A stretch of DNA of 64,000 bases from Aequorivita capsosiphonis DSM 23843 (GTDB lineage: Bacteria; Bacteroidota; Bacteroidia; Flavobacteriales; Flavobacteriaceae): the NCBI RefSeq assembly GCF_000429125.1, contig NZ_AUBG01000001.1:310001-374000 (forward strand), in the 5' to 3' direction. Positions 30,235 through 47,296 of the stretch are shown here, piece by piece. The translations under genes and the position numbers were made by a program. Numbering within the stretch: the stretch's first letter is position 1; each line of letters begins with the position of its first letter. The notes below the pieces were generated by a model, which saw nothing but the letters and a program-made list of their open reading frames with translations, did no database searches and had not been told where the DNA came from.

Positions 30235-30236
30235 TG

Positions 30237-30259
30237 TTAGGTACAACATAGGTAAAACA
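30237..30259 (+). repeat. Left arm-type direct repeat of the island
   Basis: Two tandem units, AGGTACAACAT and AGGTAAAACA, preceded by TT. A copy differing at one base lies at 48533-48555 next to the integrase start. Candidate integrase arm-binding sites at both ends of the island. Confidence 0.7.
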
Positions 30260-30349
30260 TTAACATTTTTTAACGTTTTAAATACTCAAACGTCCCTAAT
30301 CCAGTACAAAATTAACTATATGTTTTCCTAGCAATCTCTTTTTCAAGAA

Positions 30350-31015
30350 CTACAACGGAATCCCATAGTCTTTGTCTCTTTGATCATACTTTCGCAAATT
30401 ATCTTGCTGGCCAGAATTTGGCCTAGTGACTTCCTCTTTTATTTTGATGCCTTTCTCGACAAATTTACTGGCTGCTGTCTTCCAGTTTTTTATTTTAAGC
30501 CCTCTGCTAAGCCCCCAATCTCTGGCTTCGTAATATGCATAGAATTTTTTTCCTTCCATAGCAGGCCAATTATTTTCTTTAAAAAAATTTAAAACAACCA
30601 GTTCATTTTTTGGCCTTGCCAGTTTATTTAAGTTTTCTATTGTTTTATGTTTATAATAAGGTACCAGATTTTGGCCTGGTTCTGGAACGCTGTTGGCCAA
30701 TTTTTGACCATCTGAACTAAAAAAAATGGACATCTGAACTTTTGAACCTTTTGCCGGATGATAAGAGGGGCAGTATCGTAAATAGTTCCAATCATTGAGG
30801 TCTTTGAGATAACTGTGATAGGTTGTTTTTGATTTGAATTTTGCCTTTTCCATAATCCATTCCCTATTTATGGTTATCGTCTTTTTAAAAAATTCCCGGT
30901 TCCACTTCTGAAAGAATGCCAGATATAAAGTAATATGACCTTGTTTGATCCTGTGGTCTTTATTGAAACGGTCAAACGCTTCGTTGAGCTGGATGATGTA
31001 GTTTACTTTTTCCAT
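30350..31015 (-). CDS. Helix-turn-helix-like protein of mobilizable elements
   Basis: 221 residues. N-terminal half looks like a winged-helix replication/transcription factor: HITLYLAFFQKWNREFFKKTITI, then EKAKFKSKTTYHSYLKDLNDWNYLRY. The C-terminal half ends with a segment common to such proteins (VVLNFFKENNWPAMEGKKFYAYYEARDW... NWKTAASKFVEK). Its start overlaps the 3' end of the BfmA-like gene by 13 bases, so they form an operon. Proteins of this kind accompany BfmA/BtgA in flavobacterial mobilizable elements; exact role unknown. Confidence 0.7.
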   Translation of the reverse strand: MEKVNYIIQLNEAFDRFNKDHRIKQGHITLYLAFFQKWNREFFKKTITINREWIMEKAKFKSKTTYHSYLKDLNDWNYLRYCPSYHPAKGSKVQMSIFFSSDGQKLANSVPEPGQNLVPYYKHKTIENLNKLARPKNELVVLNFFKENNWPAMEGKKFYAYYEARDWGLSRGLKIKNWKTAASKFVEKGIKIKEEVTRPNSGQQDNLRKYDQRDKDYGIPL

Positions 31016-31389
31016 TGCTCATTATCATTGGTTTTCGTATATTTTTTTTCTACAATCAATTTTTTCTTGGGCGGTTCGGTTTGCTCGAAAAGCGCTTGCA
31101 TCATCGCCACGGTTGGTTTGGTCTGTGACTTTTCAATATCTTTCATAATAGCGATCATTCCGTTCATTCGCTTTTTTATCAGAACGGAAATTCTGTTTTC
31201 CAGCGTTTCCATTCGAGGACCTAAACGCTCTGTTGGGGAAATTCCGTTTTCATTAAAAAAGTCTATCATTAAAAGCAATGTCATCGATTGAGATTTAGAG
31301 AGCATTTTACAAAATTTTCTAAATTCAATAGCCACAGACCTCTTTATCTTCAAAGTCTCAAATTCTTCTTTTTCATATCCTTTATCCAT
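31003..31389 (-). CDS. BfmA/BtgA family mobilization accessory protein
   Basis: 128 residues. N-terminal ribbon-helix-helix-like segment (FETLKIKRSVAIEFRKFCKMLSKSQ), central LLMIDFFNENGISPTERLGPRMETLENRI and a basic C-terminus; this matches the BfmA/BtgA mobilization family of Bacteroidota. Such proteins bind oriT and help the relaxase. No relaxase is present in the island. The non-coding region just upstream holds nested palindromes that fit an oriT. Confidence 0.75.
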   Translation of the reverse strand: MDKGYEKEEFETLKIKRSVAIEFRKFCKMLSKSQSMTLLLMIDFFNENGISPTERLGPRMETLENRISVLIKKRMNGMIAIMKDIEKSQTKPTVAMMQALFEQTEPPKKKLIVEKKYTKTNDNEQWKK

Positions 31390-31520
31390 AGCTTTTAGTA
31401 AAAAAAATACCTGTTTACGGCGGTTGACAAATGTTTTTAGTAAAAAATAGCATTAATAGTCAAACTCTGGAAAAATAAAAAATTATGTAAACCCCTATAA
31501 ATGCTGAGTTTATAGTGAAA

Positions 31521-31569
31521 ATCGAATAACCGTAACGTCGCGTAGCGCGTTACCCTCTTGCTATTCGAT
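31521..31569. other. Nested inverted repeats, candidate oriT
   Basis: Outer arms ATCGAATA (31521-31528) and TATTCGAT (31562-31569) are perfectly complementary. Inner arms GTAACG (31532-31537) and CGTTAC (31548-31553) are also perfect, around a CG-rich centre. Located 132-180 nt upstream of the BfmA-like gene, the usual place for the nick region it serves. Confidence 0.55.
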
Positions 31570-31921
31570 TCCTTCATTTCATTTCAGGATCTTCATACTT
31601 TTTAACCAAGGCTGAAAAGCTATTTGAGATACTTTTAACACCGTTATTTTTTTAGTAATAAAGTGAAGATAATTATTTACAAACAACTGGCAATCATTTA
31701 AATAAACTAATTTTTATATTCATTTTGGATGGTTTTATTTGATGGAATTTAGTATACTTTTTCCTTTTAAAATCACATACTTATTATATCTTGAGCGTTT
31801 TCCTTTTTATTTAATGTGAAATTCTATGTTGCCTTGTAATTATCGATTTTATTTTTGGTAAAATGATACAGATTAAGGTTCTATCCAATTTCATTCACTT
31901 ACTTCCCATAGCGCTCTCGCC

Positions 31922-32112
31922 GTTACCTTTTCGGTAACTGTAACAAAAATTCTGAACGAGTAAGGACTTATAAATAAGGAGGGACGACTGGTTTATGCAG
32001 TTCGTCTCGGGCATAATTTTAAACTTTGTGTAGAAAAAGGTTGGGGTGATCTTTTTGCTGAGCGAACGCAGTCACTTTTTCTGCGACTGGGTTCAAGATA
32101 ATGTAGTGAACC
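31922..32112. other. Cluster of hairpins
   Basis: GTTACC-TTTTC-GGTAAC (31922-31938); GACGACTG/CAGTTCGTC (about 31983-32006, one bulge); GGTTCA/TGAACC (32090-32095/32107-32112). The first repeats the GTTAC word of the palindrome at 31532-31553. Could be an untranslated RNA, a second origin element or part of the mobilization region. Confidence 0.45.
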
Positions 32113-32381
32113 GCTTTTCCCGGAATGAAGCCCTTCGCGAAATGTAGAGGAATGGGGTGGAACGTTGTTGATATTAGTAAACAAATTATTTCATGAAGCG
32201 ATCAATGATGTCATTCGGCTCATATTTAAGCATATTTTGAGCTGATTTGATTACTCAATTTAACTCATAATTCTTACAATTAATTCCCGAATCTTAATGA
32301 AGTAATAGGGTTGAAGATGACATAACGAACTTATATCTTAGTAAGAACTAATTACAAACATTAATTCGAGAGTCGTTTTGT

Positions 32382-33422
32382 TTAGAATTCCTTCTTGTAT
32401 AAAATGATTAAATCTCTGTAAGCTTTTATAATTACTTCTTTTTGAGAATTTAATTCTGAAGCAGCTTTATCCATACGTTTGTGGCAATCAGTCCAAGTTT
32501 CACTCGGGTAAGGTTCCTTCATTATAAAATATCTTTCGCTTTGAAGAGCATCGATTCTTAATTCTTCTGTAATTGTAACACCACTTTGCTCTAAATCAAA
32601 TATCGATGGACTTGAGCCTATATTATTTGGAACGTTAATATGAGCGTAACACATGCTTGTAAATGAATCTAATTCTTTTACCAATTCTTGCATTTTTTCA
32701 TTTAAATTTTCGTTTATGAAATGATTCATGGAATCTTTGTAAAAGTTGATTAATTCTAACCATCTACTGTGCATGTAATTATTATAATACAAGTTTGTAA
32801 CAACAGTATTTAAATTATCTATTATTCGCTGTTCTGAGAGGATTTCATCAATTTTATTAAAAATAACTCTGTCCTTCTGTTTTAACTCGTCTAAATTTTG
32901 CCTTTCCAATATACTGTCATAATCCTCTATAATTGTTCTTATACCAAACTCTAAAGTATTTACTATAACTGTTTTATAATTACCATCCTTTTTGTTGAAA
33001 CTAGTAATTCTGTGGGCTCTAATGTCAAATGGCAACATTTCATTTGTCCCAAACTCAGTATTATTAACACAAATAATTCTTTCCCAACCAAGACAATTAA
33101 TTGCATAGCCCAATTCAACTAGTACATTTGGATTTGAAGTAATTCTTCTTTTAAGTTTACGGTTTAAATATGAATTATTTATTAAACTCACATCACATAT
33201 GAAAATATCACACTGAGAAATTTTATCAAATATTGTTTGTGCAATTTGAGGGCTTCCACTTCTATTTCTTGTATCTCTATCAAAGTTTATTTCTAAAGAG
33301 ATATCCTCTGATGATTTTCTTTTAATAATCTTTATAGCCTTCTCAATTGAGCTCGAAATGAAATTGCTACTCTTTCTTTTATCAGATTGCCAAGAATAAA
33401 ATACGGAATAGTGCTTACTCAT
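32382..33422 (-). CDS. TIR-like domain protein, candidate effector of the defence operon
   Basis: 346 residues. N-terminal Rossmann/TIR-like domain (about 1-150): HYSVFYSWQSDKR, LEINFDRDTRNRSGSPQIAQTIFDKI, CDIFICDVSLI, and NPNVLVELGYAINCLGWERIICV with a conserved Glu. This 'FYSWQSD' group is often annotated as TIR-like or nucleotide-binding and recurs beside defence genes. The C-terminal 190 residues are helical with no known domain. It is the last gene of the operon, 23 nt after drmB, in the position where DISARM usually has drmC. NADase or nucleotide-binding activity is inference. Confidence 0.7.
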   Translation of the reverse strand: MSKHYSVFYSWQSDKRKSSNFISSSIEKAIKIIKRKSSEDISLEINFDRDTRNRSGSPQIAQTIFDKISQCDIFICDVSLINNSYLNRKLKRRITSNPNVLVELGYAINCLGWERIICVNNTEFGTNEMLPFDIRAHRITSFNKKDGNYKTVIVNTLEFGIRTIIEDYDSILERQNLDELKQKDRVIFNKIDEILSEQRIIDNLNTVVTNLYYNNYMHSRWLELINFYKDSMNHFINENLNEKMQELVKELDSFTSMCYAHINVPNNIGSSPSIFDLEQSGVTITEELRIDALQSERYFIMKEPYPSETWTDCHKRMDKAASELNSQKEVIIKAYRDLIILYKKEF

Positions 33423-33445
33423 TTAGTGATAATTTTATATTCATA

Positions 33446-35548
33446 TTATGAAAAAAGACCAATTTCAGGATTAGTTAATGTTCCAATTAGCATTCCTCTA
33501 TCTAAAAATTTATTCATATTGCAACAACTTGTTTCTGGTAATAAACAACAAGAATGACAAGCACCTAAATTAACTCCCATAAAACCCTTCCCACTGGTAT
33601 TGTCTAAGCATAACGGGTCTGAACTACACCAAGATGCTTTTCCAATAGCTTTTTCAAATACATTACTTAAAAATGTGGGTTCTCCTTTTTCTACTAATCC
33701 ACCGAGTGTCCCTTCAGAATCAGAAGTACTTGTGTATATTAATATTCCATTCATATTAGGTTCTTCATTATTTCCAGAATAGATAATTTCCGATAAAGAA
33801 GAACTACCGTACCCGCATTCTATAGATAGCTCATTTATTAAAATATGACTTAATGTATGGAGTAATACATACCGAGCAGTTAATACCTCATCAGGCTCTA
33901 AACCATAAGATGCTCTATAATTATCATTGTTTTCTTGAATGATTTTGAATCTTTTCTTTACTTCAGTTTTATTTTCCCACTCATTAAGAATCAAATCATT
34001 AAATTTAATAAAAATCCCTTCCCCTCTAACTTCTGTACAGGGTAATGTATTGGTTGACAATTCACTTCTAGGGTCCTGAATTCTTTCTAATTCTGCTTTA
34101 CGTCTACCTGTTACTTTTTCTGGGCTATCAAAAATTAAATCTTCAAACATTAGCGGTTTAATTCTTGTAAACCCTCTGAAAATTTTTAATTCTTTTATTT
34201 TATCAAGTAATACTACATTCTCTATTAGATTAGACAAGCCTAATTTATAATTAGCACCATTCATAATTCTTGAATCATACCATTCATTTTTTTTGGATAT
34301 TACGTTCTCGTTCAAAAAACAATCGAATTCTTGCTTTCTGAGTTGTTGAGTTGTGAATTGGACTTTTTCTTCATTCGAGCTTAGAAAATACTTTTCAGCA
34401 TAATCTATAGCCTCATCAATATCATATGGAAGGTCGTGAAATCGTTTGTTAAAAGTCCTTTTTAATAAAAAAATATATTCTTCTACATCTTGTTTATTAT
34501 CAATGAAATCTTCCCAGCTATCAATAGCTTTTTTAAATCTTAAAACGAAATCTTCTGGAAGATTTGGAGAGTAACCATTCTTGGGAAGACTTATACCCTT
34601 ATATACTATTGGGAAATAAAGATTTCCAGCACCTCTAAGAAGCGTTCGAGGATATTTCGCTAATTGCCTTTTTTTCTCTTCATCACTATCTTCGATGGAA
34701 TAAGGTGGGTAGTTAAGATTTTCAATTTTAAAATTTCTAAAATTTTTAATCCCTTTGCCGGAAGTTGAAGTAATTTTAGAATTTCGGCCATACCAAGGCT
34801 TTGGCAACCTATTCTTCGCATAAATCATATAATCTTCATGCGGTTCTTTTAAGCTAACAAATGTATCTTCTTGGTCAAATATTCTTTCCAAAGTTACAGA
34901 ACCAAGAATTTCATCCGTCTTCCTATGTCTACTTTCCAGACTTATATTTTTTAATGTTGCTGAACTCCCAGAGCTTTTCAGGTAGAGCTTGTTTCCTTTT
35001 CCAATTTCATCATATAACTTAAGTCTTGTGTGAATATACCAATCAAATGGAAAATCATCAAGATGACCGCCTTCGGTTGCAATAATAAACCTTACAGGTA
35101 TGAGTTTTCTACTGTTAAAATTTGGAGAATCAAAACCAGTAAAAGTCTCATCCACATTTTTACCAGCCCGATTTCTTCTATCCACATAATTTTCTTCATT
35201 TTGCTCTAATTCTCTGACATCAAATAATTGTCCTGTAGCTGGACATTGTAAAATTGAAGGAAAACGAATTGATTGAACCTTGGCCTTATTAACAGAATCT
35301 GACGTAGGGGCACTAACAAAGCATTCTACATTAAAAGCAATTGCAAGTCTATCATCTTCTATTCTGTTTGCTGGAAATTCGAAATCTTCTCCCCAATAAA
35401 CTGCATTATTATAGTGCCCATCTCCGCCTATTATTCCTTTTTGGGGTATATCATGAGATAAAATTAATACAGATAATTCAGGAAAATCGGCTATAGCTCC
35501 CGGACCATAGGTATGTATTGTTTGTGATGTTCTTATTTCCTGTTCCAT
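33446..35548 (-). CDS. drmB: DISARM protein DrmB (DUF1998)
   Basis: 700 residues. N-terminus SQTIHTYGPGAIADFPELSVL matches the DrmB opening (S-Q-x-x-x-x-GPGA-x-x-D). The C-terminal DUF1998 part (about 540-690) has RYVLLHTLSHILINELSIECGYGSSSL, ILIYTSTSDSEGTLGGLV and a Cys-rich stretch WCSSDPLC...GACHSCCLLPETSCC that probably binds metal. DrmB pairs with DrmA in an ATPase complex acting on incoming phage DNA. Its first base overlaps the drmA stop by one nt. About 10 Cys residues fall in the last 70 residues. Confidence 0.88.
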   Translation of the reverse strand: MEQEIRTSQTIHTYGPGAIADFPELSVLILSHDIPQKGIIGGDGHYNNAVYWGEDFEFPANRIEDDRLAIAFNVECFVSAPTSDSVNKAKVQSIRFPSILQCPATGQLFDVRELEQNEENYVDRRNRAGKNVDETFTGFDSPNFNSRKLIPVRFIIATEGGHLDDFPFDWYIHTRLKLYDEIGKGNKLYLKSSGSSATLKNISLESRHRKTDEILGSVTLERIFDQEDTFVSLKEPHEDYMIYAKNRLPKPWYGRNSKITSTSGKGIKNFRNFKIENLNYPPYSIEDSDEEKKRQLAKYPRTLLRGAGNLYFPIVYKGISLPKNGYSPNLPEDFVLRFKKAIDSWEDFIDNKQDVEEYIFLLKRTFNKRFHDLPYDIDEAIDYAEKYFLSSNEEKVQFTTQQLRKQEFDCFLNENVISKKNEWYDSRIMNGANYKLGLSNLIENVVLLDKIKELKIFRGFTRIKPLMFEDLIFDSPEKVTGRRKAELERIQDPRSELSTNTLPCTEVRGEGIFIKFNDLILNEWENKTEVKKRFKIIQENNDNYRASYGLEPDEVLTARYVLLHTLSHILINELSIECGYGSSSLSEIIYSGNNEEPNMNGILIYTSTSDSEGTLGGLVEKGEPTFLSNVFEKAIGKASWCSSDPLCLDNTSGKGFMGVNLGACHSCCLLPETSCCNMNKFLDRGMLIGTLTNPEIGLFS

Positions 35549-38500
35549 TAATCTATGTAGCTTTTAATTTTTATTTTGGCTGAAGTATCAACATCTCTCA
35601 GTGATGTCATCGCAAATAACATTTTACCTCTTGTCATATGATGGTCACGATATTTTGCATCAAGAAAAAGTCTATTAGTCAAATTTTCTTCTGATAAAGA
35701 ATTATTCATTATGTCCCTAAATTCAGTGAAATTTACAGAACCTAAATTTCTCCATCGCTCTTTAAGCTCATCAAATAATGTTTCAATTTCATTGACTTTT
35801 TTAATTGATAATTTTTCGTTTTTGATATTTAAAACCGTGGTGATATTCATATATCTTTCAATTAATTTTTGCTTAATCTGATTGAAACTTAGTTCTGCCT
35901 TTGAGTCAAAATAAGCATTAGTTTCCTCTTTGAAATACATTCCCCTCATTAAAGCAATGACGACTGAGTCTAAGGTCTTTTCAAGAGCTGGCAAAGAAAA
36001 TGGTGTAACACTTGTAGCTTCTACGTATTTGTAATACGCTTGATGATAATCCTTGAAATTTTCGTAATGTGACCTATCACGATTTTTAGCTTGATTATAT
36101 AATGTTAGTACAATTCCTGGGGATTGTCTTCCAACCCGTGAACTTGCTTGAATATATTCAGCTGATGTTTTAGGCTGACCTGATATGGACATAACATTAA
36201 GTCGAGGTATATCTACGCCAACTGCTATCATATTTGTAGCTAGAGCAACTTTAACAGGGTCATTCTCGTCTCGGCTCTTACTCTTTATTGATTTTTCAAA
36301 AATAGGATAGCATTTGTCATAGACAACATCTAATTTATCTTCTTCGTAAGGATAGGGTCCTATTTTTTTATCATCTGATAAGTCTGCTATAACTTTAATA
36401 GTATCCCAGTGATCATTGAATATAGAAATCCATTTCCATTTATATTTAACTTCTTGCAAATCTTTTTCAGTATTTACACCTATTTCACTCAAGAACTTTA
36501 CAACCCCATCACTCAAATCGGTATATTGCAAACGTGTATTTTCCAATCTATCTAAACCAATATTAATTTCATCGGAAGTCATTTGACTTGATAACTCAAC
36601 AATTCTACTAGGATTATATTGTAGATGTATATTTTTAAAATGTTTACTTAAGAACTTTCTGTAGGCGTTCATATCGTCTTCTAATAGTGTCCGATATTTA
36701 CCTAATTCTTTTACCGTATTAAAATAAGCGAGTAAAGTGTAATAATTGTCTAGCTCACTATTTTTAGCATTTCTCATTAAATTTACTCCTTCGTACAAGA
36801 GACTGTCAAGTCTTAGTTTGGCGGTAGTAGAAGTATTCCCACTTGCCATAATTCCTAAATAAAGTCTTCCGCTGTCATCCTCACTCTTTTTTCTGGAATA
36901 GAAAGAATCATCAATACGGACTCCAACAGGTGGAAATTGCGAATAATACTTTCTGTCATAGATTTTAATACATTGTTGCCTAGCATTTCTAACGGTTGCA
37001 GTTGCACCTATTATCTTGGGCTTTGAACCTTTGTGGTTGGTTAGTTCATCAATAGCAAACTCAAAGAGACTATAAATAGTTCCCAAGGAGGAACTAATAA
37101 GATGAAGTTCATCTTGAACAATTAATGATGGAGGTGGGCAAAATCTTGAAAAATCATCATTGAAATTAAATAAACGAAAAACTTCTTTTTTCCAAGATAG
37201 CTGAGCATATTTATCCACAGTTGAAAATAAAAGAGTTGGTCTATGTCTATAAACGTCCTCATCAACATAATATATTGGTAGTGAATAACTATCTATTTTT
37301 GGAGAATCTAGTTTATTTAATAAAAAATCTGCTTCTGAAAGATAAAAATGACATTTGGAATTTGTACAATGTGTTATAAATGGGTTATAGCTATCTTTAT
37401 TATGAGTAAAAGGTTTTCTTTTTAATCTATTTCTTTTTTGATTATAGCCCCATTTTCCTTTAGTCTCTTGTTTCTTACCGTCATTAGAATGAATCTCTTT
37501 TACTAATTTATTTCCACAACATGGACAGTTAAATACTGGAGGGGCATAATCATGGGTGAAATTATCATTCCTGTTGTCAATATTTGTTCTATAAGCTTCG
37601 AGCAATTCATTATTTCCTGGAAACTCTCTAGTACCAGAGTGTTTGTTTGGGAAAAAAGAACCTCCTACCCATAAACCATTTGAGACTCTTTCCTTACCGT
37701 ATAAATCAGGATTTTTATATCTAATAAGCTCACAAGCACAAATTAAAATGTTAGCTCTGTCAAACTGTTGCTTATTCAGCATACGAAGGGTATAACGCAT
37801 CATTACGCTAACACCACTAACTTTAGTATCAGACTTAAGGCGTCCATAAAAAATAGTAAAAGATATCAGTCCTAAATAAGCTTCTGTTTTCCCACCTCCT
37901 GTAGGAAACCATAACAAATCAATAGTTTCTCTGTCATCAGATTTTTTATCAACGACACCTTCTATTTGAGATAAAATGAAAGCTAATTGAAAAGGTCTCC
38001 ATTTAGCTAGAAACCTATTATTGGAAGGTTTCACTTTAGGTATGGATAGGTTCCCATTTTTCCATATTGAATTAGAAATTGAGTCATAAGGTATTTTTTT
38101 ACAGTCTGGAAGGCAGTCATCTAACTCATCTGAATTCTCAGAAGGAAAGGTCCTTTTTTCTATTGTTCTATGTTTAGCAAAATCAGACATAACCCTTTGA
38201 TTAAACATTGCCTTATTTGCATCTAGGAACGCTCTTAAAACATCTTCATCGTTCAAGAGCTCAATCCCTCTATTCATACGAGATAACAATTTGCGACACT
38301 TCTCAATAATGGATGATGAGGTTTTTAAATACTCTTTATTAAATACTTCTCCTTTAAGAGAATCTTCTTGCTCAGCAATCCATGTCTCATAGATTTTCGT
38401 GAAACTCCTAAGTCCACTTATTAAATCATTAGTTTTAAATGTAGGGTCTAAATCTGATAGGTTCTTCATGAACAATATATCATCAGAGCCTTCTAATTCG

Positions 38501-39447
38501 TGTGGATTAAAGTCTACACCATTAATTTTTTCCTTCGGAATGATTGAACTTTCAACTCTATGTACTAGGGTATCATCATAGATCCAATTACTCCCACATC
38601 CGTGACCTAAGCAATAATTTTTATAGTTTCTATATAAAAATTTGAGTTCTATTTCCTCTTCACTTAAAAACTCTAGTTTTGTGTTATCTGGGAAGGAAAC
38701 AAATTCAATTGAAGAGTCTATAGTTATTTTTGGTTGAAATATGCAACCTTCTCTAGATTTAACTGAACCATCAATAACTTTTTTGTTATTTATTAATGAT
38801 ACAGTTATTATGGTTTGATTTTCTTTAAGCCCGTGTTGTTTTCGCTTTATAATTTTAATACACGAATTATTTTCTTCATTTAAAATACTCAATATATTTC
38901 CCTGACTACTAGTCTCCCAAGAATTTTCTGAATTAATCTCTCCAATAATCTTAAAATCAGAGACCCTAACATCCAATAAAATAGTAATTGGTTTCCGAGT
39001 ATATTTGGAATCTGATTTCAATTTCATTTCATTTGTACTTGTGTAATATTTTCCAAAATCGACTTGTACTTTTAGTATCGATTTTTCATCTATTATCGAA
39101 GATATAGCTATTGAGGATGGGTAAAATTCAGTTGTTAATCTTAAATCTTCTTCTTTGTCATCTTCGATAACCTTTTTGTTTCTCCAGCTATTTGTCTCAT
39201 TAGAATCATTAATTTCATCTTCTTTAATCCCACTCAACTCTCCATCAACTTCATTAGGAGTAAATAAAGAAGTTTCCTCTCTTGATTGGGGAAATAGAAT
39301 TCCTGTAGAATACATATCTAGAGGTGAGAAAGATATATTTTCGTTTTTATCTGCTTCTCCGTTTTCGTCTAAATGAAAGGGACCTAAATAAGTTCTGTTA
39401 ACCCATTCAGATATTTCATCTCGTATTTCTAAATTCGTTTTATTCAT
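35548..39447 (-). CDS. drmA: DISARM helicase DrmA
   Basis: 1299 residues, the size expected for DrmA. SF2 helicase core: Walker A WFPTGGGKTEAYLG (near residue 515), a Cys4-type insert (PPVFNCPCCGNKL ... THCTNSKC), DExH-like box IVQDELHLISSSLG (near 778), and C-terminal motifs VALATNMIAVGVDIPRLNV and QASSRVGRQSPG (near 1100). DISARM DrmA helps block phage DNA and its self-discrimination involves the methylase. N-terminal 450 residues are beta-rich and unassigned. Two nt after the NERD-helicase gene. Confidence 0.9.
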   Translation of the reverse strand: MNKTNLEIRDEISEWVNRTYLGPFHLDENGEADKNENISFSPLDMYSTGILFPQSREETSLFTPNEVDGELSGIKEDEINDSNETNSWRNKKVIEDDKEEDLRLTTEFYPSSIAISSIIDEKSILKVQVDFGKYYTSTNEMKLKSDSKYTRKPITILLDVRVSDFKIIGEINSENSWETSSQGNILSILNEENNSCIKIIKRKQHGLKENQTIITVSLINNKKVIDGSVKSREGCIFQPKITIDSSIEFVSFPDNTKLEFLSEEEIELKFLYRNYKNYCLGHGCGSNWIYDDTLVHRVESSIIPKEKINGVDFNPHELEGSDDILFMKNLSDLDPTFKTNDLISGLRSFTKIYETWIAEQEDSLKGEVFNKEYLKTSSSIIEKCRKLLSRMNRGIELLNDEDVLRAFLDANKAMFNQRVMSDFAKHRTIEKRTFPSENSDELDDCLPDCKKIPYDSISNSIWKNGNLSIPKVKPSNNRFLAKWRPFQLAFILSQIEGVVDKKSDDRETIDLLWFPTGGGKTEAYLGLISFTIFYGRLKSDTKVSGVSVMMRYTLRMLNKQQFDRANILICACELIRYKNPDLYGKERVSNGLWVGGSFFPNKHSGTREFPGNNELLEAYRTNIDNRNDNFTHDYAPPVFNCPCCGNKLVKEIHSNDGKKQETKGKWGYNQKRNRLKRKPFTHNKDSYNPFITHCTNSKCHFYLSEADFLLNKLDSPKIDSYSLPIYYVDEDVYRHRPTLLFSTVDKYAQLSWKKEVFRLFNFNDDFSRFCPPPSLIVQDELHLISSSLGTIYSLFEFAIDELTNHKGSKPKIIGATATVRNARQQCIKIYDRKYYSQFPPVGVRIDDSFYSRKKSEDDSGRLYLGIMASGNTSTTAKLRLDSLLYEGVNLMRNAKNSELDNYYTLLAYFNTVKELGKYRTLLEDDMNAYRKFLSKHFKNIHLQYNPSRIVELSSQMTSDEINIGLDRLENTRLQYTDLSDGVVKFLSEIGVNTEKDLQEVKYKWKWISIFNDHWDTIKVIADLSDDKKIGPYPYEEDKLDVVYDKCYPIFEKSIKSKSRDENDPVKVALATNMIAVGVDIPRLNVMSISGQPKTSAEYIQASSRVGRQSPGIVLTLYNQAKNRDRSHYENFKDYHQAYYKYVEATSVTPFSLPALEKTLDSVVIALMRGMYFKEETNAYFDSKAELSFNQIKQKLIERYMNITTVLNIKNEKLSIKKVNEIETLFDELKERWRNLGSVNFTEFRDIMNNSLSEENLTNRLFLDAKYRDHHMTRGKMLFAMTSLRDVDTSAKIKIKSYID

Positions 39448-39449
39448 AA

Positions 39450-41216
39450 TTAGTTCATCGCTTGTATAGCAAGTTTTGTTTTATTTTCTTCTTGAAAAAA
39501 TATTGTTAATCCTAATTTAGCCCTAGTATAACCAACATATAATAATGACATATTCTCCATGATTTCTGGTGAATAATTAAGTACTCCAGCAACTATTATG
39601 AAATCATTCTCTAAACCTTTATAACTATGTATTGTAGAGATTGAAACCTTATCTTTGACTTTGTGATTATCTTCATTTACTTTATTGTAGCTTAATTTTG
39701 AAAGTTCAATTATTTTTCTCAAAATAGTATTATCAGTAGTTAAGACTGTAATATTTGAAAAGCCTATACCATCACTTTTTTGTTTATTAATCAATGAATC
39801 TAGCTCGGTTACTAAATTTTCAGTAGACTGATAAAATATCGTTCTTGTTTTAAATGGAATATCTTTCCTCCTGCAAGGAATAATATCCAAACCACTATGT
39901 CTAGATGCAACATTAATTATGTCTTCATGATTTCGGCAATTGAGAGGCAAAGCATTTACAGTTGTAGGGTATTGAGACACAAAAAGTTTGAAAAACTCTT
40001 CATCAAAACTTTCATAAAAACCTTGAAATTTGTAGTCAATAAAAATGCTCCAATTCCCAGACTCAACACCTCCGATTAGACTTAAAAAAATAGAATCTAA
40101 AATGTTCTCTCTAAAGACATCCTGACCTTCATCAATAATAAGGAAATCATACATAGATACGTTAAGAGAGTTGAACCAATATTTAAATTGGTTTGGTAAA
40201 AGTTCCGTCCAATATTTTGTAATTGAACGATCACCTTGTGGAAGTAACGATGCTTTGCTCAAATACTCAAAGAGATATTTATGAACGTTGAAAACTTCTA
40301 TTTCTAGATCCTCAAAAGAATCAAAATATTTTTTTATTTCAGATGATAAGTTTTTGTTAAAACAGAAGAAAGCAACTTTCTTATTTTGATTTGCTTTTCT
40401 TAAGATAAGCTCTTTCGCTAAAAGTGTTTTCCCAGTTCCAGGTCCACCCGAGACAATAAACCCTCTATTTGAGAAAAAATCTACAGAATCTAAAATTTGA
40501 TATTGTTCTTCTGTGTATTCTATTATTTTATTGTTCTGATCATCGAGAATCTTATTTAATGGAATTTCGAATATTAAATCCTTTCGAAACATCTTTCTTA
40601 TGTTGTCAACACCTTTAAGTCCAATCCCAGTGTAAGTTTTATTCTCATATTTATCGTGAGATTTCCAATACTCCTTAAGTCTTTCTATGTATTTTATAAA
40701 AGTAATCGGGGTACTATGATCTGCCGAGGTATATATGATTTCTGGGTCATATTCTATGGTTTCATAATTGAAATTATCTGACTTGCCTGTTTTTTTATTG
40801 AGATTAAAGCTTTTAACATCTGGAAACATAACACCATAACCAAATATCAATTTAGACCTATAGTTTTCAGATGGATAAAATTTATTAATCAAATTATCTC
40901 TAAAATGGAACAAATAGTCTGTTACTTGTTTAAAGGGCTCCCCTCTTTTCGTACCTCCTAAAACCCACCATTCATCATTTACACAATCATACCTTACAGG
41001 TCCTCCCTTGGATTCCAAAAATAAAATAAAGTTTTCATCTAAATATACAAAGTCTACTTCTCCTACTAATTTTCTTTTCACATTGTGACTTCTTAATGAA
41101 TGAAATAGATACCTTTTTAAGTTATTCTCAAAATAACCAGACTTGTTTGCAAGAGTATATATTTCTCTTTCACCGTTATTAGTAAACTCGGTTCTATATT
41201 TTGGTAATATTGGCAT
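39450..41216 (-). CDS. NERD nuclease-UvrD/SF1 helicase fusion
   Basis: 588 residues. N-terminal NERD-type nuclease-related domain (about 10-130) with GEREIYTLA, GEVDFVYLDENFILFLESKGG (acidic/Lys residues Asp55, Glu68, Lys70 in a PD-(D/E)xK-like arrangement). Then a UvrD/Rep-type helicase: Walker A GGPGTGKT (257-264), motif II IDEGQD (361-366), motif V HSYKGLENDFIIVAG and motif VI YVGYTRAKLGL. Such fusions occur in defence loci and DNA repair. It sits inside the operon, touching both neighbours (0 and 2 nt), so it is an integral part of this system, though not one of the canonical DISARM genes. Confidence 0.85.
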   Translation of the reverse strand: MPILPKYRTEFTNNGEREIYTLANKSGYFENNLKRYLFHSLRSHNVKRKLVGEVDFVYLDENFILFLESKGGPVRYDCVNDEWWVLGGTKRGEPFKQVTDYLFHFRDNLINKFYPSENYRSKLIFGYGVMFPDVKSFNLNKKTGKSDNFNYETIEYDPEIIYTSADHSTPITFIKYIERLKEYWKSHDKYENKTYTGIGLKGVDNIRKMFRKDLIFEIPLNKILDDQNNKIIEYTEEQYQILDSVDFFSNRGFIVSGGPGTGKTLLAKELILRKANQNKKVAFFCFNKNLSSEIKKYFDSFEDLEIEVFNVHKYLFEYLSKASLLPQGDRSITKYWTELLPNQFKYWFNSLNVSMYDFLIIDEGQDVFRENILDSIFLSLIGGVESGNWSIFIDYKFQGFYESFDEEFFKLFVSQYPTTVNALPLNCRNHEDIINVASRHSGLDIIPCRRKDIPFKTRTIFYQSTENLVTELDSLINKQKSDGIGFSNITVLTTDNTILRKIIELSKLSYNKVNEDNHKVKDKVSISTIHSYKGLENDFIIVAGVLNYSPEIMENMSLLYVGYTRAKLGLTIFFQEENKTKLAIQAMN

Positions 41217-43967
41217 CTATCCTTGTTGTATCATTAATATTTCTTTGACCTCCACAACTTCATTTAATTTTTCAATAATATTCTTTAATTCCAATTCTTG
41301 TATTTGATGAGTCATTCCATAATTTTTATATACTTGATATAAATATATTTGTTTATGAAGTTTTGTTCTAAACTTGGCAACCCATTCTGTTGCTTCCAGT
41401 ATTTCTTCCTTTCTAAATTCACTTGTTTTTGAAGATTCATCTTTACTGAATAAGTCTATTAGTTGGTCTAAACAATCTGGATAGATTGTTAAACCTGTTA
41501 CCCATCTATCAACAGTAGGGTTTGTAACATATATATCATTTGATTCAAGAAACCTATTCAGTATACTGATATAGCCTCCAAGCTCTTCATACTTATTTAT
41601 TAGGTCAACTCTCCAAGAATAAGAAGCCTCATAATACTTTTTCAATTTTATGTACTTATTCTTAAGATAATTAAGTAGCTCGTTAAAATCATCATTAAAA
41701 CCACTCATAACAAATATTTTGTCATTAAGTTTTAATTCTGAAGCTCGTTTCTTTATTTCTGTACTTCCGTCGCTAGCGTCATTGAGTAAATAAAAGAATT
41801 TTGTTTGAGGGACTCTTAAGTATCCATCTTCAAAGAGTAATAAAGTATTGTCGGAATTTTCAGAAGTTGTTAAAGTGCCTGTAGCCTTAAAATTGTTTTT
41901 TCGAATTATTTTATTTATTACGAATGAGAAGTCAAATTCATTACTGTCAATCGATTCAATATCATCAACATTTTCTGATTCAATAATTTCGTCCTGAATA
42001 TCTGGCAAGTCATTTTGGGTAATAAAAATATCATACCCATAATCAACATAGTCTTCTAATCTAAACTCAATCTTATTGGTGTCTACTAGATATTCTTGAT
42101 TTTCTAAATTCAATAATAATAGCTTATTGTCGAAGTCAGATAAATTTGATATAATAGGAGTAAACTTCACAAAACAATGTTTAAAATAACCCAATTCCAT
42201 TTTAGAATTAAGAATGACAAACTGTTTTTTGCAAAAATTAGTTAAAAATAAAGATTTAGTAATTTTCCCTGAATAAGTTAGAAAAAAAGCATATTTGAAT
42301 TGTCGAGTATTCATATATTCAGCATCATCAAGATGTAGGAAAACACTATTTAAACCTGTAGCTTTTAAAATAGTATTTTTAGCTTTTTCGATATCAAGCT
42401 GATTTTTGTTTTTACTAATAACTAAAACCTCTCCCTGTAAATATAACTCTTGAATCACTTTAACAATCACCGAAATTTTACTCTCATAAAAACATTCATC
42501 ATCAATTAATTGAGACAGAACTCCAACCTTATGGCTGTATGAACTAGAGTTAATCTCGCCACTTAATTTAGATAGCTTTTCGATATAATCGAAATAATCT
42601 TTTTTAATAATATCAGCATCAAAAAAGCTATTTAGTCTATCATATATCTGATAACCAATCTTTATAACGTTTAAAAGTTCACTGCTATAATTTATATCAA
42701 CTGCAGAACTTATTTCTTCTGTCAGTTGTCTAGATAACATTTTAAATGTCGACCAGTAATTATGATGACAAATATTTGTTACAGATAGAACTTTAAAATT
42801 TGATTTTTCAATCGCCCCTTTTGAATTTAAGCTGACTCTTTCTTTATGATTTATTAACCATGGGTAGGTATTTAGACCGAATCTCTCTAAAATTTCATTA
42901 TAATCAAAAAAATAATCTTTTTGAAGGAAATAAACATCTTTAATAGATGAAATCGATTGCGCCTCTTTCAGTTCCTCTGCAAAATTTTTGAAATTAGCAA
43001 AATCATTTCTTGATTCCTTTTTAATAATAAAATCAAAATCGTCAAAAATTAGTGTATTAACATGTGTAAGGTTTAATTCTTCTAAAATACCTTCCCAACC
43101 TAAATAATATTCTGATGAACAATAATAGATTATAGGCTCAACATTTTCAAGACCTTCAGAATTAATACAGCACTCATTATCTCTAGATATTTTAATTTCT
43201 GCAATCGGGAATTGCTCAATTATTGCCAAATTATCTATTTGAATATCTTTCAGTAACTGTCGATATTTAGCCTTACTCGTAAATAATAACACACCGGAAG
43301 AGGGCTTTACATTTAAATTAGTCCCAAGTTTAACTATATCTTTTATATCAACTTCAGAATTTGCATCGCCCTTAATTTTATTTAACTCAAAGAACTTTGT
43401 ATTAGAACTGATAAACTCATTTAAATAAAGCTGAAGTGATTCTGTTTTTGAAGAAATAATATGAGTTTCGACTTCTTTTGACCTAGATAAGGTACTCAAT
43501 AAATCTTGTAGTCTAGGAGCTCTTTCAATTGGTCTTTTTTCAACAGATTTAATAGCAAAGTATATTTTATTATTAACCCCTAACTTTACTTTTAAGCCTT
43601 TAAAAATCCATTGTTTCTTTAGATATTCAAATTTTTCAGGAAACATACTTTCAACTTCCGAAAGCATTGAGTTTAATTCAGTCGTATCAATAGAATCTTC
43701 AGAATAATCATTTTTTATTTCATTGTAAACCTTGTAATAATTTGATATACCTATATAAAATGGTAAAAGCTTTTGTTGCTTACTCCCTTCTCTAGTGTAA
43801 AAAGAAATAATTCTATTATGGGTGTCCAAAGTATTCGTAAAAGCCAAAAATGGAGTAAGAAGATTATACAATGTTCCTTTTAAAGGTTTACCATCTATAG
43901 ACACTCTTAAACTATCAATTTCCTTATATCTATTTCTTATGAATGATATTAACTCTTTATTAAACAT
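41217..43967 (-). CDS. Large unassigned protein, probable DrmE
   Basis: 916 residues with no motif I can name: no Walker A, no nuclease signature. Position between the C5 methyltransferase and the helicases, size, and class 2 DISARM context suggest DrmE, whose family is poorly conserved. The central region (NTLIFDDFDFIIK, VLVISKNKNQLDIEKAKN) has alternating strand/helix spacing that could be a degenerate helicase-like fold; an acidic stretch (DIQDEIIESENVDDIESIDSNEFDF) lies near residue 660. Overlaps the methylase gene by eight bases. Confidence 0.55.
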   Translation of the reverse strand: MFNKELISFIRNRYKEIDSLRVSIDGKPLKGTLYNLLTPFLAFTNTLDTHNRIISFYTREGSKQQKLLPFYIGISNYYKVYNEIKNDYSEDSIDTTELNSMLSEVESMFPEKFEYLKKQWIFKGLKVKLGVNNKIYFAIKSVEKRPIERAPRLQDLLSTLSRSKEVETHIISSKTESLQLYLNEFISSNTKFFELNKIKGDANSEVDIKDIVKLGTNLNVKPSSGVLLFTSKAKYRQLLKDIQIDNLAIIEQFPIAEIKISRDNECCINSEGLENVEPIIYYCSSEYYLGWEGILEELNLTHVNTLIFDDFDFIIKKESRNDFANFKNFAEELKEAQSISSIKDVYFLQKDYFFDYNEILERFGLNTYPWLINHKERVSLNSKGAIEKSNFKVLSVTNICHHNYWSTFKMLSRQLTEEISSAVDINYSSELLNVIKIGYQIYDRLNSFFDADIIKKDYFDYIEKLSKLSGEINSSSYSHKVGVLSQLIDDECFYESKISVIVKVIQELYLQGEVLVISKNKNQLDIEKAKNTILKATGLNSVFLHLDDAEYMNTRQFKYAFFLTYSGKITKSLFLTNFCKKQFVILNSKMELGYFKHCFVKFTPIISNLSDFDNKLLLLNLENQEYLVDTNKIEFRLEDYVDYGYDIFITQNDLPDIQDEIIESENVDDIESIDSNEFDFSFVINKIIRKNNFKATGTLTTSENSDNTLLLFEDGYLRVPQTKFFYLLNDASDGSTEIKKRASELKLNDKIFVMSGFNDDFNELLNYLKNKYIKLKKYYEASYSWRVDLINKYEELGGYISILNRFLESNDIYVTNPTVDRWVTGLTIYPDCLDQLIDLFSKDESSKTSEFRKEEILEATEWVAKFRTKLHKQIYLYQVYKNYGMTHQIQELELKNIIEKLNEVVEVKEILMIQQG

Positions 43968-45519
43968 CTAAAATTTTTAGTACTATTTTTCCAATTTGAT
44001 AAGCTAAATATGGAGGAACTGCATTCCCTACTTGATGAAATTGCATTGTCCTGCTCCCTCTAAAAAGATAATTGTCTGGGAATGTTTGTATTCGGGCAGC
44101 TTCTCGTACGGTTAAACTCCTCACTTGCGATTTATCATAATGAATAAAATAATGACCATCCTTTGATATGTGACTGGTGATTGTGGTAGCAGGCACTCCT
44201 TTCTTCTGAACTCTAAACCTATCTGCAAAGTTTCCAGATTCAGCACTAATATGGTCTGGTAATAGTTTATCTCCATATTCCTTAAAATCCCTCATTCTAG
44301 GGAATTTTTTATATTTATCAGTAAACATCGTAGAAAACATATACCTTTTTAAATCTTCAGTCAGATGGCTTCTTGATTGATGATTTAACACGCCATTGAG
44401 CTTATCATCCATATACCAAAATTGATGGGTTATCTTTTTCTTTTCTTTTCTCTTGTATTTTAAATACTCACTACCTGTTCCATAATCTGATTCATTTATT
44501 TCGAAATCATCTTCGTCTTCATTAAAACCATTTAGCTTTATAAGTTGATTTAGATTATCATTCATAAGAACCTGCCAGTTATCTTTGGAATCTTCGACTT
44601 TCTTATATTTTCTTACTCGTTTTCCTTTTTCATTAAATTCATATCTATCAAAACTTCTATTTAAACCACTTCTAATTTTCGGTAGGTCATCAATCACATC
44701 TTCAATATTTATTTTAGAAACATTCCTTTTTAAAATAGATGGTTTAGCCTCAATGTCTTCTCTAATACCGAGCAGAATTACTCTGTGTCTTTTTTGAGGG
44801 ACACCATAATCTTCAGAGTTTATTATGTATTCTTTAGGTTGCTTTACATTTTCTTCAACTAAAGAGTAGATTTTATAATTATTAATTTTCGTTCCATTAA
44901 TTATTTTATGCGGAGCGGATAGGTCTTCAAGAATCATTTCGAAAACACTATTTCCATCTACTTTGGCAGATATTAATCCTTTAACATTCTCCATTACAAA
45001 TATAGATGGTGAATGTTTCGCAATAACCTTCAAGTATTCTTTATATAAATATACTCTGTGATCATCACTTGAAATCCCACCTACTCGTGACCTTCCCGCC
45101 ATAGAATAAGCTTGACAAGGTGGCCCCCCTATAAGAACCCATTTGTCATCATTTCCAATAATGCTTTTGATTTTTGAATCGAGAAACTTTTCTGAATCTT
45201 TACCTAATTCGAATTTTATAGCTTCCTCTGAAGCAATCTGAAATTCAACAGGATAAGACTTAAATAGTTCTTCAATATTTTTTTCTCTATCTTCAATATT
45301 ATCCGTAGAAATTGCATTGTAATATTCTGTAGGAAGATTATTCTTTTGAAATTGTCGGCAGAAACTTCTTAATAAAAGGGTTTTATGCGCTGATTCATCT
45401 TTCTCAATTGACAAGCCAATCGAAAACCTTCTTTTATTATTCTTGATTATCGATGAGAATCCTTCAGCCAAGCCTCCAGGGCCTGCGAATAAATCTATAA
45501 CTTTTATACTTTTACTCAT
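43960..45519 (-). CDS. drmMII: DNA (cytosine-5)-methyltransferase, DISARM DrmMII
   Basis: 519 residues. All C5-MTase motifs are present in order: I (IDLFAGPGGLAEGF), IV with catalytic Cys135 (GGPPCQAYSMAGRSR), VI (VMENVKG, Glu177), VIII (QKRHRVILLG), IX/X (PATTITSHISKDGHYF, REAARIQTFPDNY, QVGNAVPPYLA). It marks host DNA as self in class 2 DISARM. A long target-recognition region lies between motifs VIII and IX. First gene of the defence operon proper; eight-base overlap with the next gene. Confidence 0.9.
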   Translation of the reverse strand: MSKSIKVIDLFAGPGGLAEGFSSIIKNNKRRFSIGLSIEKDESAHKTLLLRSFCRQFQKNNLPTEYYNAISTDNIEDREKNIEELFKSYPVEFQIASEEAIKFELGKDSEKFLDSKIKSIIGNDDKWVLIGGPPCQAYSMAGRSRVGGISSDDHRVYLYKEYLKVIAKHSPSIFVMENVKGLISAKVDGNSVFEMILEDLSAPHKIINGTKINNYKIYSLVEENVKQPKEYIINSEDYGVPQKRHRVILLGIREDIEAKPSILKRNVSKINIEDVIDDLPKIRSGLNRSFDRYEFNEKGKRVRKYKKVEDSKDNWQVLMNDNLNQLIKLNGFNEDEDDFEINESDYGTGSEYLKYKRKEKKKITHQFWYMDDKLNGVLNHQSRSHLTEDLKRYMFSTMFTDKYKKFPRMRDFKEYGDKLLPDHISAESGNFADRFRVQKKGVPATTITSHISKDGHYFIHYDKSQVRSLTVREAARIQTFPDNYLFRGSRTMQFHQVGNAVPPYLAYQIGKIVLKILDV

Positions 45520-45584
45520 TTACTATCTGTTACCTTTATAAAATCTTCGAAAATCATCAGCATATTTTAAATTCGATTTTCATT

Positions 45585-46376
45585 CTATTTAAGCTTCTCA
45601 ATAAGCTCACTTTTCAGCCATTCAAATGCTGCATTCTGGTCATATTTAATTTCAGGTCTTAACAAGGCTTCCATATCGCCTGTAAAATCAGGATTGTTTT
45701 CCTTTTCTTCCACATTGATTAAAAACTCTTTTTTAATGGGTGGTTTTCCAACTGAAACGCTCATATATTTATAGAAACAATCAATAATTGTAGGAATGTC
45801 CAACTTGTTGTTCAATCTTGAATAATCCAAATCAAATAAATCCCGTCCTTTGCTTCTTTGATACAATGCCCTTAATTTTGTACCCAACAATTCATTGATA
45901 TCATAGGTTCGGATATTGGCTTTACCTTCAAACCAATTGCTTTTTACTTCAAAAGGAAATTCAACCCAAGGCAACACGTTAAAATGTTCTTTACAATTGA
46001 TTTCCAATTTTAATCGTAGTCGGATATTTTCATATTCCGATGTAAATCGATACATCGCCTTTGCACCGTGGCCACCGATTTTAGTGCTTCTTTTTTCTTC
46101 GAAGAAAGTAACTACTTCAGCGATGCGTTGTATTATTGGTTTTATCGGTCCTGGTTTAACTTGAACCAAATCGATATCTTCGGAATAACGTGGCGCAGGG
46201 TTTAGATACAATTTATGAAGTGCCGTACCACCTCTGAATGCCAGATTTTCGTTTAAAAATTCATCCGAAAATATATCGACAAGGGCACGACTGATGACCA
46301 AATCTTGTTCTACCTGTGAAAAATCTCTCCAAGGTGCGTTCATCTGCCATTTCGCTATGTCAGGCCTTGGTATCAT
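45585..46376 (-). CDS. AbiEii-like nucleotidyltransferase toxin
   Basis: 263 residues. Nucleotidyltransferase fold with FRGGTALHKLYLNPAPRYSEDIDLV: the GG...(D)xD pattern of AbiEii/AbiGii toxins. A Lys/Arg-rich middle and KGRDLFDLDYS (about residues 185-195) follow the family. AbiE toxins act as NTP-dependent tRNA-modifying or bacteriostatic enzymes upon phage infection. Overlaps the antitoxin gene upstream by four bases. Ends 66 nt before the methylase, so possibly cotranscribed. Confidence 0.88.
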   Translation of the reverse strand: MIPRPDIAKWQMNAPWRDFSQVEQDLVISRALVDIFSDEFLNENLAFRGGTALHKLYLNPAPRYSEDIDLVQVKPGPIKPIIQRIAEVVTFFEEKRSTKIGGHGAKAMYRFTSEYENIRLRLKLEINCKEHFNVLPWVEFPFEVKSNWFEGKANIRTYDINELLGTKLRALYQRSKGRDLFDLDYSRLNNKLDIPTIIDCFYKYMSVSVGKPPIKKEFLINVEEKENNPDFTGDMEALLRPEIKYDQNAAFEWLKSELIEKLK

Positions 46377-47167
46377 AAATCGCTTTCCATTTTTATATTC
46401 ACATCAACTTTCCATCTATTTTCAACCGCACCTGCCTTTTCATTTGACCTTGGACTCAATAAAACTGGATAGAATTTTTTAAGTTTTAGGTGTTCGTATA
46501 TAAGATTCGCTACGTCAGAATCGGGATTGATTTCGTCCAATAAAAAACCCAAACGTTGTAATACGCTTTTTTGTGAATACCAAGACAACAAATCTTTTGC
46601 ATCAGCCATTTTCATTTCTTCTGTCAATTCTTCTAAAACGGAAAGCATTCTATTTAATCCGCCTATTTTAGTTTGATGGTAAATCAAGTCCACAGCTGTT
46701 AGGCAAGGACTGGATATTTTGTACATTCCTGCATCTCCTTTTTTTGATACTATATTTTTAGTTGGCCAATTAGACACGGTAAAAAAGTCAAGATTGATGG
46801 AATTTTTAGAGATGGATAGCAAAGGTGCTTTGTCGTGAAAGACATATTCCTTTTGGATTTGCTGATGTCCAGCACCATAAGATTTTGCTGCCGAGTATAA
46901 TCCTATATAGTAATTGCGGTCTAAAAACTCAAACAGGCTATTAACGTATAGCTCGATGGGTAATTTCCCGAATTTTGAATATCGTGGCGGAATAATCAAA
47001 TAAAAGTGATGCCGCAAAGGAATGATATCGCCCTTTTGTATAGCGTAAGATAATTGACTCTGTATTGAAGTTTCAGACTTATCTGCTTTAGCAATAAGAA
47101 GTTCGTCCCAATTGAAAGCATAACTTTCAAATGATAATCGTTCTTTTATGAAGTCGGACAGATTCAA
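46373..47167 (-). CDS. AbiEi-like antitoxin/transcriptional regulator
   Basis: 264 residues. N-terminal winged-helix (FNWDELLIAKADKSETSIQSQLSYAIQKGDIIPLRHHFYLIIPPRYS) and C-terminal AbiEi domain (YIGLYSAAKSYGAGHQQIQKEYVF; MYKISSPCLTAVDLIYH). AbiEi represses its own promoter and neutralises AbiEii, without direct contact (type IV TA). An inverted repeat just upstream (47170-47226) fits an operator. Coupled to the toxin gene (ATGA overlap). Confidence 0.88.
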   Translation of the reverse strand: MNLSDFIKERLSFESYAFNWDELLIAKADKSETSIQSQLSYAIQKGDIIPLRHHFYLIIPPRYSKFGKLPIELYVNSLFEFLDRNYYIGLYSAAKSYGAGHQQIQKEYVFHDKAPLLSISKNSINLDFFTVSNWPTKNIVSKKGDAGMYKISSPCLTAVDLIYHQTKIGGLNRMLSVLEELTEEMKMADAKDLLSWYSQKSVLQRLGFLLDEINPDSDVANLIYEHLKLKKFYPVLLSPRSNEKAGAVENRWKVDVNIKMESDL

Positions 47168-47169
47168 TT

Positions 47170-47226
47170 GTAGTAAATTTTCGAGAAATATAGTGAATAT
47201 TAGTTGTTTTCTTGAAAGTTTACTAC
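47170..47226. promoter_or_regulatory. Inverted repeat upstream of the AbiE pair, candidate operator
   Basis: GTAGTAAA (47170-47177) is perfectly complementary to TTTACTAC (47219-47226), beginning 3 nt before the antitoxin start codon. A separate perfect palindrome AAAGATTATAATCTTT (47243-47258) follows. AbiEi proteins are known to bind inverted repeats in their promoters. Confidence 0.55.
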
Positions 47227-47242
47227 ACTTTTTTTGAAATTT

Positions 47243-47258
47243 AAAGATTATAATCTTT
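47243..47258. promoter_or_regulatory. 16-bp perfect palindrome between integrase and AbiE genes
   Basis: AAAGATTATAATCTTT, a perfect dyad 76 nt upstream of the AbiEi start and 39 nt after the integrase stop (leftward). May be a regulator site; no U-tract, so not a terminator. Confidence 0.4.
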
Positions 47259-47296
47259 TAATAACAGATTAAAAATTGATTTACTTTCTGCTTTTC

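Follow-up and report, generated by a model that had tools for sequence, protein, structure and literature searches.

How would a DISARM operon (defense island system associated with restriction–modification) that has no detectable DrmC degrade phage DNA, if it does so at all? The question is raised by a locus of Aequorivita capsosiphonis DSM 23843, which lies in a stretch of 64,000 nucleotides (contig NZ_AUBG01000001.1, positions 310,001 to 374,000 of the forward strand) referred to here as the window. At 32382-45519 this window holds six minus-strand genes, among them those for DrmA, DrmB and a protein in which a NERD nuclease domain is fused to a superfamily 1 (SF1) helicase, termed NERD-SF1. 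From the sequences, we put a probability of roughly 0.6 on the reading that this is a DrmC-less DISARM operon from a broad branch in which NERD-SF1 is often present and DrmC was not found, and that NERD-SF1 is the probable nuclease.

All six open reading frames (ORFs) are present, and their leftward direction and tight packing, as described by an earlier reading of the letters alone (the sequence-only reading), are borne out by coordinates and strand, with junctions of -8, 0, +2, -1 and +23 nt between consecutive genes. The operon begins with a DrmMII-like C5-cytosine methyltransferase of 519 aa (43960-45519; PADLOC DrmMII, E=6.4e-93; Pfam DNA_methylase, 8.9e-49), followed by a remote DrmE of 916 aa (41217-43967) and by NERD-SF1 itself, with 588 aa and a UvrD-like helicase part (39450-41216; Pfam UvrD_C, 1.3e-11). 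Next come the DrmA helicase of 1299 aa (35548-39447), which matches the PADLOC model at 5.1e-187 and the solved DrmA structure 7s9v at 1.5e-113, and the DUF1998/MZB zinc-binding protein DrmB of 700 aa (33446-35548; PADLOC, 1.2e-58; Pfam MZB, 2.3e-8). DrmB scores 379 bits in the NCBIfam DrmB family NF038324 (cut-off 240), while DrmA reaches 813 bits against the NCBIfam DrmA equivalog, under its cut-off of 950. The last gene encodes a TIR-like protein of 346 aa, accessory to this locus (32382-33422). The family names given in the sequence-only reading to the C5-methyltransferase, DrmA, DrmB and the NERD-UvrD fusion agree with the PADLOC, Pfam and NCBIfam profile searches, although the window's NERD domain lies below the Pfam cut-off (E=0.0011, 19.8 bits against 22.1). 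The DISARM core is contained in the operon, namely a DrmA helicase, a separate DrmB with DUF1998 and a DNA methyltransferase, and the matches to the DrmA, DrmB and DrmMII profiles uphold the DISARM-like nature that had been proposed.

Class 2 (type II) DISARM consists of DrmMII, DrmE, DrmA, DrmB and DrmC (PMC9252829). The claim that DrmC is missing was also supported, since a profile search for a drmC homologue at the operon and island came back empty: no DrmC match to a hidden Markov model (HMM) was found among ORFs of at least 60 aa in window positions 29501-49000. No PLDc_2 match lies on the window's contig (C1), and the matches in the same genome are confined to contigs C2, C6 and C16. The SNF2-like DrmD of class 1 was likewise not found among the operon proteins with Pfam and PADLOC (for the methyltransferase, among the best 25 of 57 PADLOC rows).

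The company of DrmA was examined in 99 other DrmA loci, labelled with HMMs built in this analysis. Among 395 genomes of the order, 22 match the DrmA family at E<=1e-3 and eight at E<1e-100, including the genome of the window, and the seven others of these eight entered the set. Plasmid searches contributed twelve loci, and genome contigs scanned with an alignment of 16 DrmA rows yielded at least 575 confirmed relatives, of which the 80 that best match the window's DrmA were kept. The sample leans to the window's side of the DrmA family, and the choice of five plasmid loci was made in part with a NERD match already known; the 80 scanned loci were selected independently of neighbor genes. Loci were labelled NERD or PLD (phospholipase D) where such a gene lies on the same strand and starts within 9 kb of the DrmA start, and a locus without PLD is one without a DrmC-like PLD, the DrmC HMM being conservative. 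The NERD threshold was set at E<1e-60 because the first NERD HMM extended into the helicase part, and weaker NERD proteins (in L039, and the second such protein in L037) were left out of the strong count. Loci in which DrmA is flanked by more than 6 kb on each side (71 of 99) are termed long-flank loci.

Full-length NERD-SF1 is found near DrmA in 28 of the 99 loci and a DrmC-type PLD protein in 28, while no locus has both and 43 have neither (among them 15 truncated loci). Long-flank loci show the same pattern, with 23 NERD, 20 PLD, 28 neither and none with both (Fisher p=1.2e-4, kinship ignored). The genome-scan loci taken alone comprise 19 NERD, 26 PLD, 35 neither and 0 both of 80, and those with long flanks 16, 19, 23 and 0 of 58. 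A check with an N-terminal-only NERD HMM gave 30 matches, none of them in a PLD-labelled locus. The NERD loci span nine phyla: Bacteroidota, Bacillota, Pseudomonadota, Actinomycetota, Myxococcota, Planctomycetota, Verrucomicrobiota, Thermodesulfobacteriota and Deinococcota.

This exclusion follows the DrmA phylogeny. In a quick DrmA tree of 99 rows, from which L036 was left out (DrmA shorter than 900 aa), the NERD and PLD labels are separated by a single change, and the DrmA proteins of the window and of L051 are sisters with a support of 100. The root was set at the midpoint and not inferred; with this rooting, the window's half comprises 25 rows with NERD, none with PLD, 14 with neither and 9 that are cut. 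A single 41-row set free of NERD takes in all 27 PLD rows, and four NERD rows (L044, L047, L050 and L127) diverge basally on the PLD side. The presence or absence of NERD alone requires at least 16 changes on the 99-row tree. A careful tree restricted to the NERD and PLD rows (56 of 99) supports the branch that sets off all 27 PLD rows at 99/98, and one label change was sufficient in 200 of 200 bootstrap trees. When 13 rows were added with FastTree, there was still one change; seven of these rows carry a label, namely four PLD and three NERD (two of the latter, L154 and L156, had been found through NERD), and six have neither gene.

The NERD-SF1 protein also appears to have diverged together with its neighbors. 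Its divergence correlates with that of DrmA (rho 0.58) and DrmB (0.55), compared to 0.86 between DrmA and DrmB, and 0 of 999 permutations reached the observed rho for either DrmA-NERD or DrmA-DrmB. Four residues of the NERD domain, E16, D55, E68 and K70 (E/D/E-x-K), are invariant in 29 of 29 sequences, and we take them to be the catalytic positions from the PD-(D/E)xK pattern. Pfam NERD matches at <=1e-3 in 19 of 20 aligned members (window protein, 1.1e-3). Because these residues are intact and because NERD-SF1 and DrmC exclude each other, NERD-SF1 is the candidate for the cutting enzyme and for a functional stand-in for DrmC.

Gene order around NERD-SF1 is partly conserved. The order methyltransferase-DrmE-NERD-DrmA-DrmB is shared by the window with L034 (where the contig start truncates the methyltransferase), L051 and L119; L153 has the first three genes and was not counted, its DrmA fragment being inverted at the contig end. 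Six further loci show DrmE-NERD-DrmA-DrmB; in four of these the DrmE-like protein is shorter (499-543 aa) and only weakly assignable to DrmE. Three more loci (L032, L038 and L114) show methyltransferase-NERD-x-DrmA-DrmB. In twelve loci NERD is placed after DrmB. Several companions were seen along the way. A cassette of DrmA, DrmB, an SF1 helicase (376-417 aa), a protein of 467-552 aa and NERD-SF1 recurs in L037, L086, L095, L096 and L116; its 479-aa protein in L037 has a weak match to an ADP-ribosyltransferase domain (E=0.0021, below cut-off). An annotated DarT-type ADP-ribosyltransferase stands behind NERD-SF1 in the DISARM locus of an Azospirillum plasmid (L044:15069-15671), a prokaryotic Argonaute gene lies in one gene run between methyltransferase and DrmA (L035:12434-14506; PADLOC pAgo, 1.4e-248), and an HSP70-like gene (1.9e-38) belongs to the gene run upstream of DrmA in L127 (6161-7600).

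The sequence-only reading had also proposed a distinct DISARM subtype; a merely sporadic occurrence of NERD beside drmAB would have counted against it. Recurrence holds at 28 of 99 loci, though 43 show neither nuclease, and a DrmC-less branch with recurrent NERD supports the proposal in part; the grouping is wider than Bacteroidota and is not defined by six genes.

The identity of DrmE required a more sensitive comparison. The window's 916-aa protein has no PADLOC match and matches Pfam DrmE_C only at E=0.07, and as a single query it recovered only itself in plasmids, phages, viral contigs and 395 genomes of the phylum sample; L051, whose DrmE is 53% identical, surfaced later. A profile of the window and L051 proteins aligns by hhalign with twelve DrmE relatives over 621 columns (probability 96.8%, E=2.8e-10), which bears out the DrmE-like assignment as a remote one. 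Pfam DrmE_C was detected in all three scanned of the twelve (L034, 2.9e-10; L077, 9.1e-8; L119, 6.4e-4, below cut-off), and not in L049 or in the DrmE-like proteins of about 500-540 aa of L040 and L106. With the L034 relative as query, nothing was found in plasmids. A protein of about 770-830 aa lies between NERD-SF1 and DrmA in L032 (10439-12928), L038 (10500-12821) and L114 (6249-8603). It was rejected as DrmE, with hhalign probabilities of 0.3% to the window pair and 0.2% to the DrmE family, and an unlabelled gene of this size is also present in L154 and L156. Proteins of L107, L067 and L035 were rejected as well, with 33% over only 111 columns.

The AlphaFold model of the window's DrmE was poor (pLDDT 60) and was not used for fold search, and the L088 relative was predicted well (pLDDT 81, pTM 0.61). 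The best matches of the L088 model among solved structures are superfamily 2 (SF2) helicases, namely LGP2, XPB, MDA5, RIG-I and Chd1 (best E 1.2e-6, with low TM-scores of 0.1-0.4). The helicase-like part is without a Walker A motif in all 15 DrmE members examined; the one match, in L069, is at residue 723. DrmE is read here as a putatively inactive SF2-like protein, possibly the counterpart of DrmD. The DrmE label was assigned from three HMMs (L049, L053 and L109 carry it solely through the one seeded with L049), and among the long-flank loci it never coincides with DrmC (0 of 22, or 0 of 19 when the three L049-type proteins are set aside). This is at odds with published class 2, and the DrmE-labelled set therefore may not include the founding kind.

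These parts can be assembled into a provisional mechanism. The C5-methyltransferase would mark host DNA, and the DrmA-DrmB helicase complex would load on phage DNA that is unmodified and has single-stranded 5′ ends, as class 1 DrmAB does (PMC9142583). DrmE, SF2-like and without ATPase motifs, could serve as adaptor or sensor. NERD-SF1 would then be recruited to the loaded DrmAB and travel on the DNA by its own motor while its NERD domain cuts. The TIR-like protein would be a local, optional addition, perhaps an NAD-depleting second line.

A number of observations weigh against this assignment of the nuclease. Neither nuclease is present in 28 of the 71 long-flank loci, and within the 48-row branch of the window no NERD is seen in 14 of the 34 other long-flank loci; NERD is therefore not strictly required, and in this branch it is common and not obligatory. 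Its position varies, before DrmA or after DrmB, and homologues occur without DrmA nearby (L155 and L158). Fisher's test ignores kinship, and the NERD and PLD labels fall into few clades. The exclusion itself has blurred edges: L070 carries NERD plus a downstream PLD-domain helicase on the same strand (DrmC HMM, E=0.0014, below the labelling threshold), L124 has a PLD protein at 7.7 kb on the opposite strand, and in L193 the DrmC HMM overlooked a protein annotated as belonging to the phospholipase D family, hence the narrow meaning given above to a locus without PLD. Furthermore, DrmC has been reported dispensable in DISARM (PMC9142583), so that the slot held by DrmC or NERD may not be that of the cutter.

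The last point, together with the loci that have neither nuclease, lends some weight to the idea that NERD-SF1 is a backup or suicidal co-effector that damages host DNA when DrmAB fails, with the main block due to helicase action and not to cutting. Such a role has been proposed for the NERD domains of PglW and DndF (PMC12839542, PMC10853773). We consider it unlikely here, as the exclusion of DrmC and the co-divergence with DrmA fit replacement better than a bolt-on. Still less probable is that NERD-SF1 is an independent defense gene that merely sits within an ordinary class 2 DISARM operon after loss of DrmC. PADLOC does know NERD-helicases from other contexts (RTasNERD-Hel, C3a187), and among 395 genomes of the class Bacteroidia 13 match NERD-SF1 at E<=1e-20 and eight at E<1e-60. 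Two of these eight (G893 and G781) show no DrmA within the stretch examined, compared to four with an intact DrmA neighbor (the window, G053, G955 and G741), one with an inverted DrmA fragment at the contig end (G897) and one cut by the contig end (G1072). No DrmA was found with the five weaker matches, three of which come from contigs only 3.4-9.2 kb long. In a search of 99 relatives of G459, a strong match occurs only in G459 and G053, so NERD-SF1 is rare among them. Against independence, NERD-SF1 recurs beside DrmA in 28 of 99 loci from nine phyla, mostly in contiguous genes, with a divergence correlated with that of DrmA and never together with a DrmC-type protein.

The remaining alternative treats all six genes as one fixed unit with the TIR-like protein as an essential abortive arm, as its place on the strand of DrmB, 23 nt behind that gene, might suggest. 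The window's TIR-like protein matches CAP12-PCTIR_TIR at E=3.6e-4 and 21.0 bits, below the cut-off of 24.7; its relatives score 27.0 bits (L131, above the cut-off), 24.6 (L169) and 17.5 (L132), and by this kinship it probably belongs to the CAP12-PCTIR TIR family. Relatives occur in 67 plasmid records, none with 80% query coverage, and, of 249 genomes of the family, in 4 besides that of the window; there are none in viral contigs. At E<=1e-4, no match was found in the stretches covered of the 99 other DrmA loci, including the sister operon L051, and the four relatives whose surroundings were examined (on two plasmids and in two genomes) have no DrmA nearby. The fixed unit is thereby made very improbable, and the TIR-like gene drops out of the subtype as first proposed. 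Because it has no match in the other loci, it looks like a local optional addition.

If NERD-SF1 is retained as the probable nuclease, a wider scheme can be put forward tentatively, at somewhat less than even odds. DISARM would comprise two ancient effector branches, one with PLD DrmC and one with NERD-SF1. The window's branch would then be a separate class in which NERD-SF1 accounts for DNA degradation, the step long missing, and DrmD is replaced by DrmE, an inactivated SF2 helicase. A branch in which DrmC was not found and a nuclease-helicase has an intact active site makes the nuclease question directly testable. The branch is also easily missed, because the NERD-linked DrmA proteins on five plasmids (L040, L042, L044, L047 and L194) are annotated as 'helicase-related protein' or 'DNA helicase' and not as DrmA. 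The published PADLOC definition of type II DISARM requires DrmC (PMC9252829) and, as written, would leave NERD loci unreported as such.

The operon is carried by a mobile island of about 18.5 kb at tRNA-Met (30149-48703). The 3′ part of the tRNA gene (30117-30191) contains an attachment-like repeat (30149-30191, plus strand), a 43-nt direct repeat whose second copy (88%) marks the other end (48661-48703, plus strand). Between the copies and around the operon are minus-strand genes for a tyrosine integrase (47297-48505; Pfam Phage_int_SAM_5, 1e-17; Arm-DNA-bind_5, 3.8e-15; Phage_integrase, 1.1e-14), the AbiEi antitoxin (46373-47167; PADLOC, 3.9e-95), the AbiEii nucleotidyltransferase toxin, which is island cargo upstream of the operon (45585-46376; PADLOC, 1.7e-115), and a BfmA/BtgA-type mobilization protein (31003-31389; NCBIfam NF041200, 2e-29). 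Mobility is indicated by the repeats, the integrase and the mobilization gene, and by the uninterrupted arrangement elsewhere: hisS is present in 19 of 19 other genomes of the genus searched, and hisS, tRNA-Met and the two left-hand genes are contiguous without an island in 6 of 7 whose stretch was examined, the tRNA not being seen in the stretch behind hisS of the seventh. Near-identical 26-nt repeats (92%) lie just inside the island ends (30234-30259 and 48530-48555) and are perhaps integrase arm sites, and a 55-nt direct repeat (84%; 48702-48756 and 49067-49121) lies beside the right end. A 221-aa protein next to the mobilization gene (30350-31015) has no significant Pfam, PADLOC or NCBIfam match.

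No description of a NERD-helicase in DISARM was found in the portions covered of the DISARM and NERD literature (including PMC12458937, PMC9142583, PMC9252829, PMC12839542, PMC10853773 and PMC10952713), a coverage that excludes the founding Ofir 2018 paper, supplements and figures. DrmC is called typical for DISARM, and NERD is placed in TALON (PMC12458937). TALON resembles the window in having an operon with a YprA-type helicase and a NERD nuclease, but it has TPR-CSD and TBP genes and an ARMADA-like helicase and is largely found in Chloroflexota; the ten island proteins scanned gave no Pfam match to a TPR-CSD fusion or TBP gene. ARMADA type II shares a YprA-type helicase, a methyltransferase and, in ArmD, a GajB-like SF1 helicase with an N-terminal nuclease-type domain (PMC12458937). 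The domain of ArmD is a RelE-like RNase and not NERD, and ARMADA also has a BrxHII-like helicase, whereas the window's helicase fits DISARM DrmA models and its DrmB is a separate gene. The PADLOC model RTasNERD-Hel (DRT-associated NERD-helicase) matches the window's NERD-SF1 over residues 13-576 (7.5e-32), yet PADLOC lists it under DRT (reverse-transcriptase) systems. Class 1 DISARM (DrmD, DrmMI, DrmA, DrmB and DrmC) has homologous DrmA and DrmB, with DrmA matching the solved 7s9v, while in the window's operon neither the SNF2 helicase DrmD nor DrmC was found and a C5 methyltransferase takes the place of DrmMI. The closest likeness is to class 2 DISARM, as a DrmMII-like methyltransferase, a remote DrmE, DrmA and DrmB stand in one operon; the window differs in that DrmC was not detected there, and in that the operon has a NERD-SF1 helicase and a TIR-like gene.

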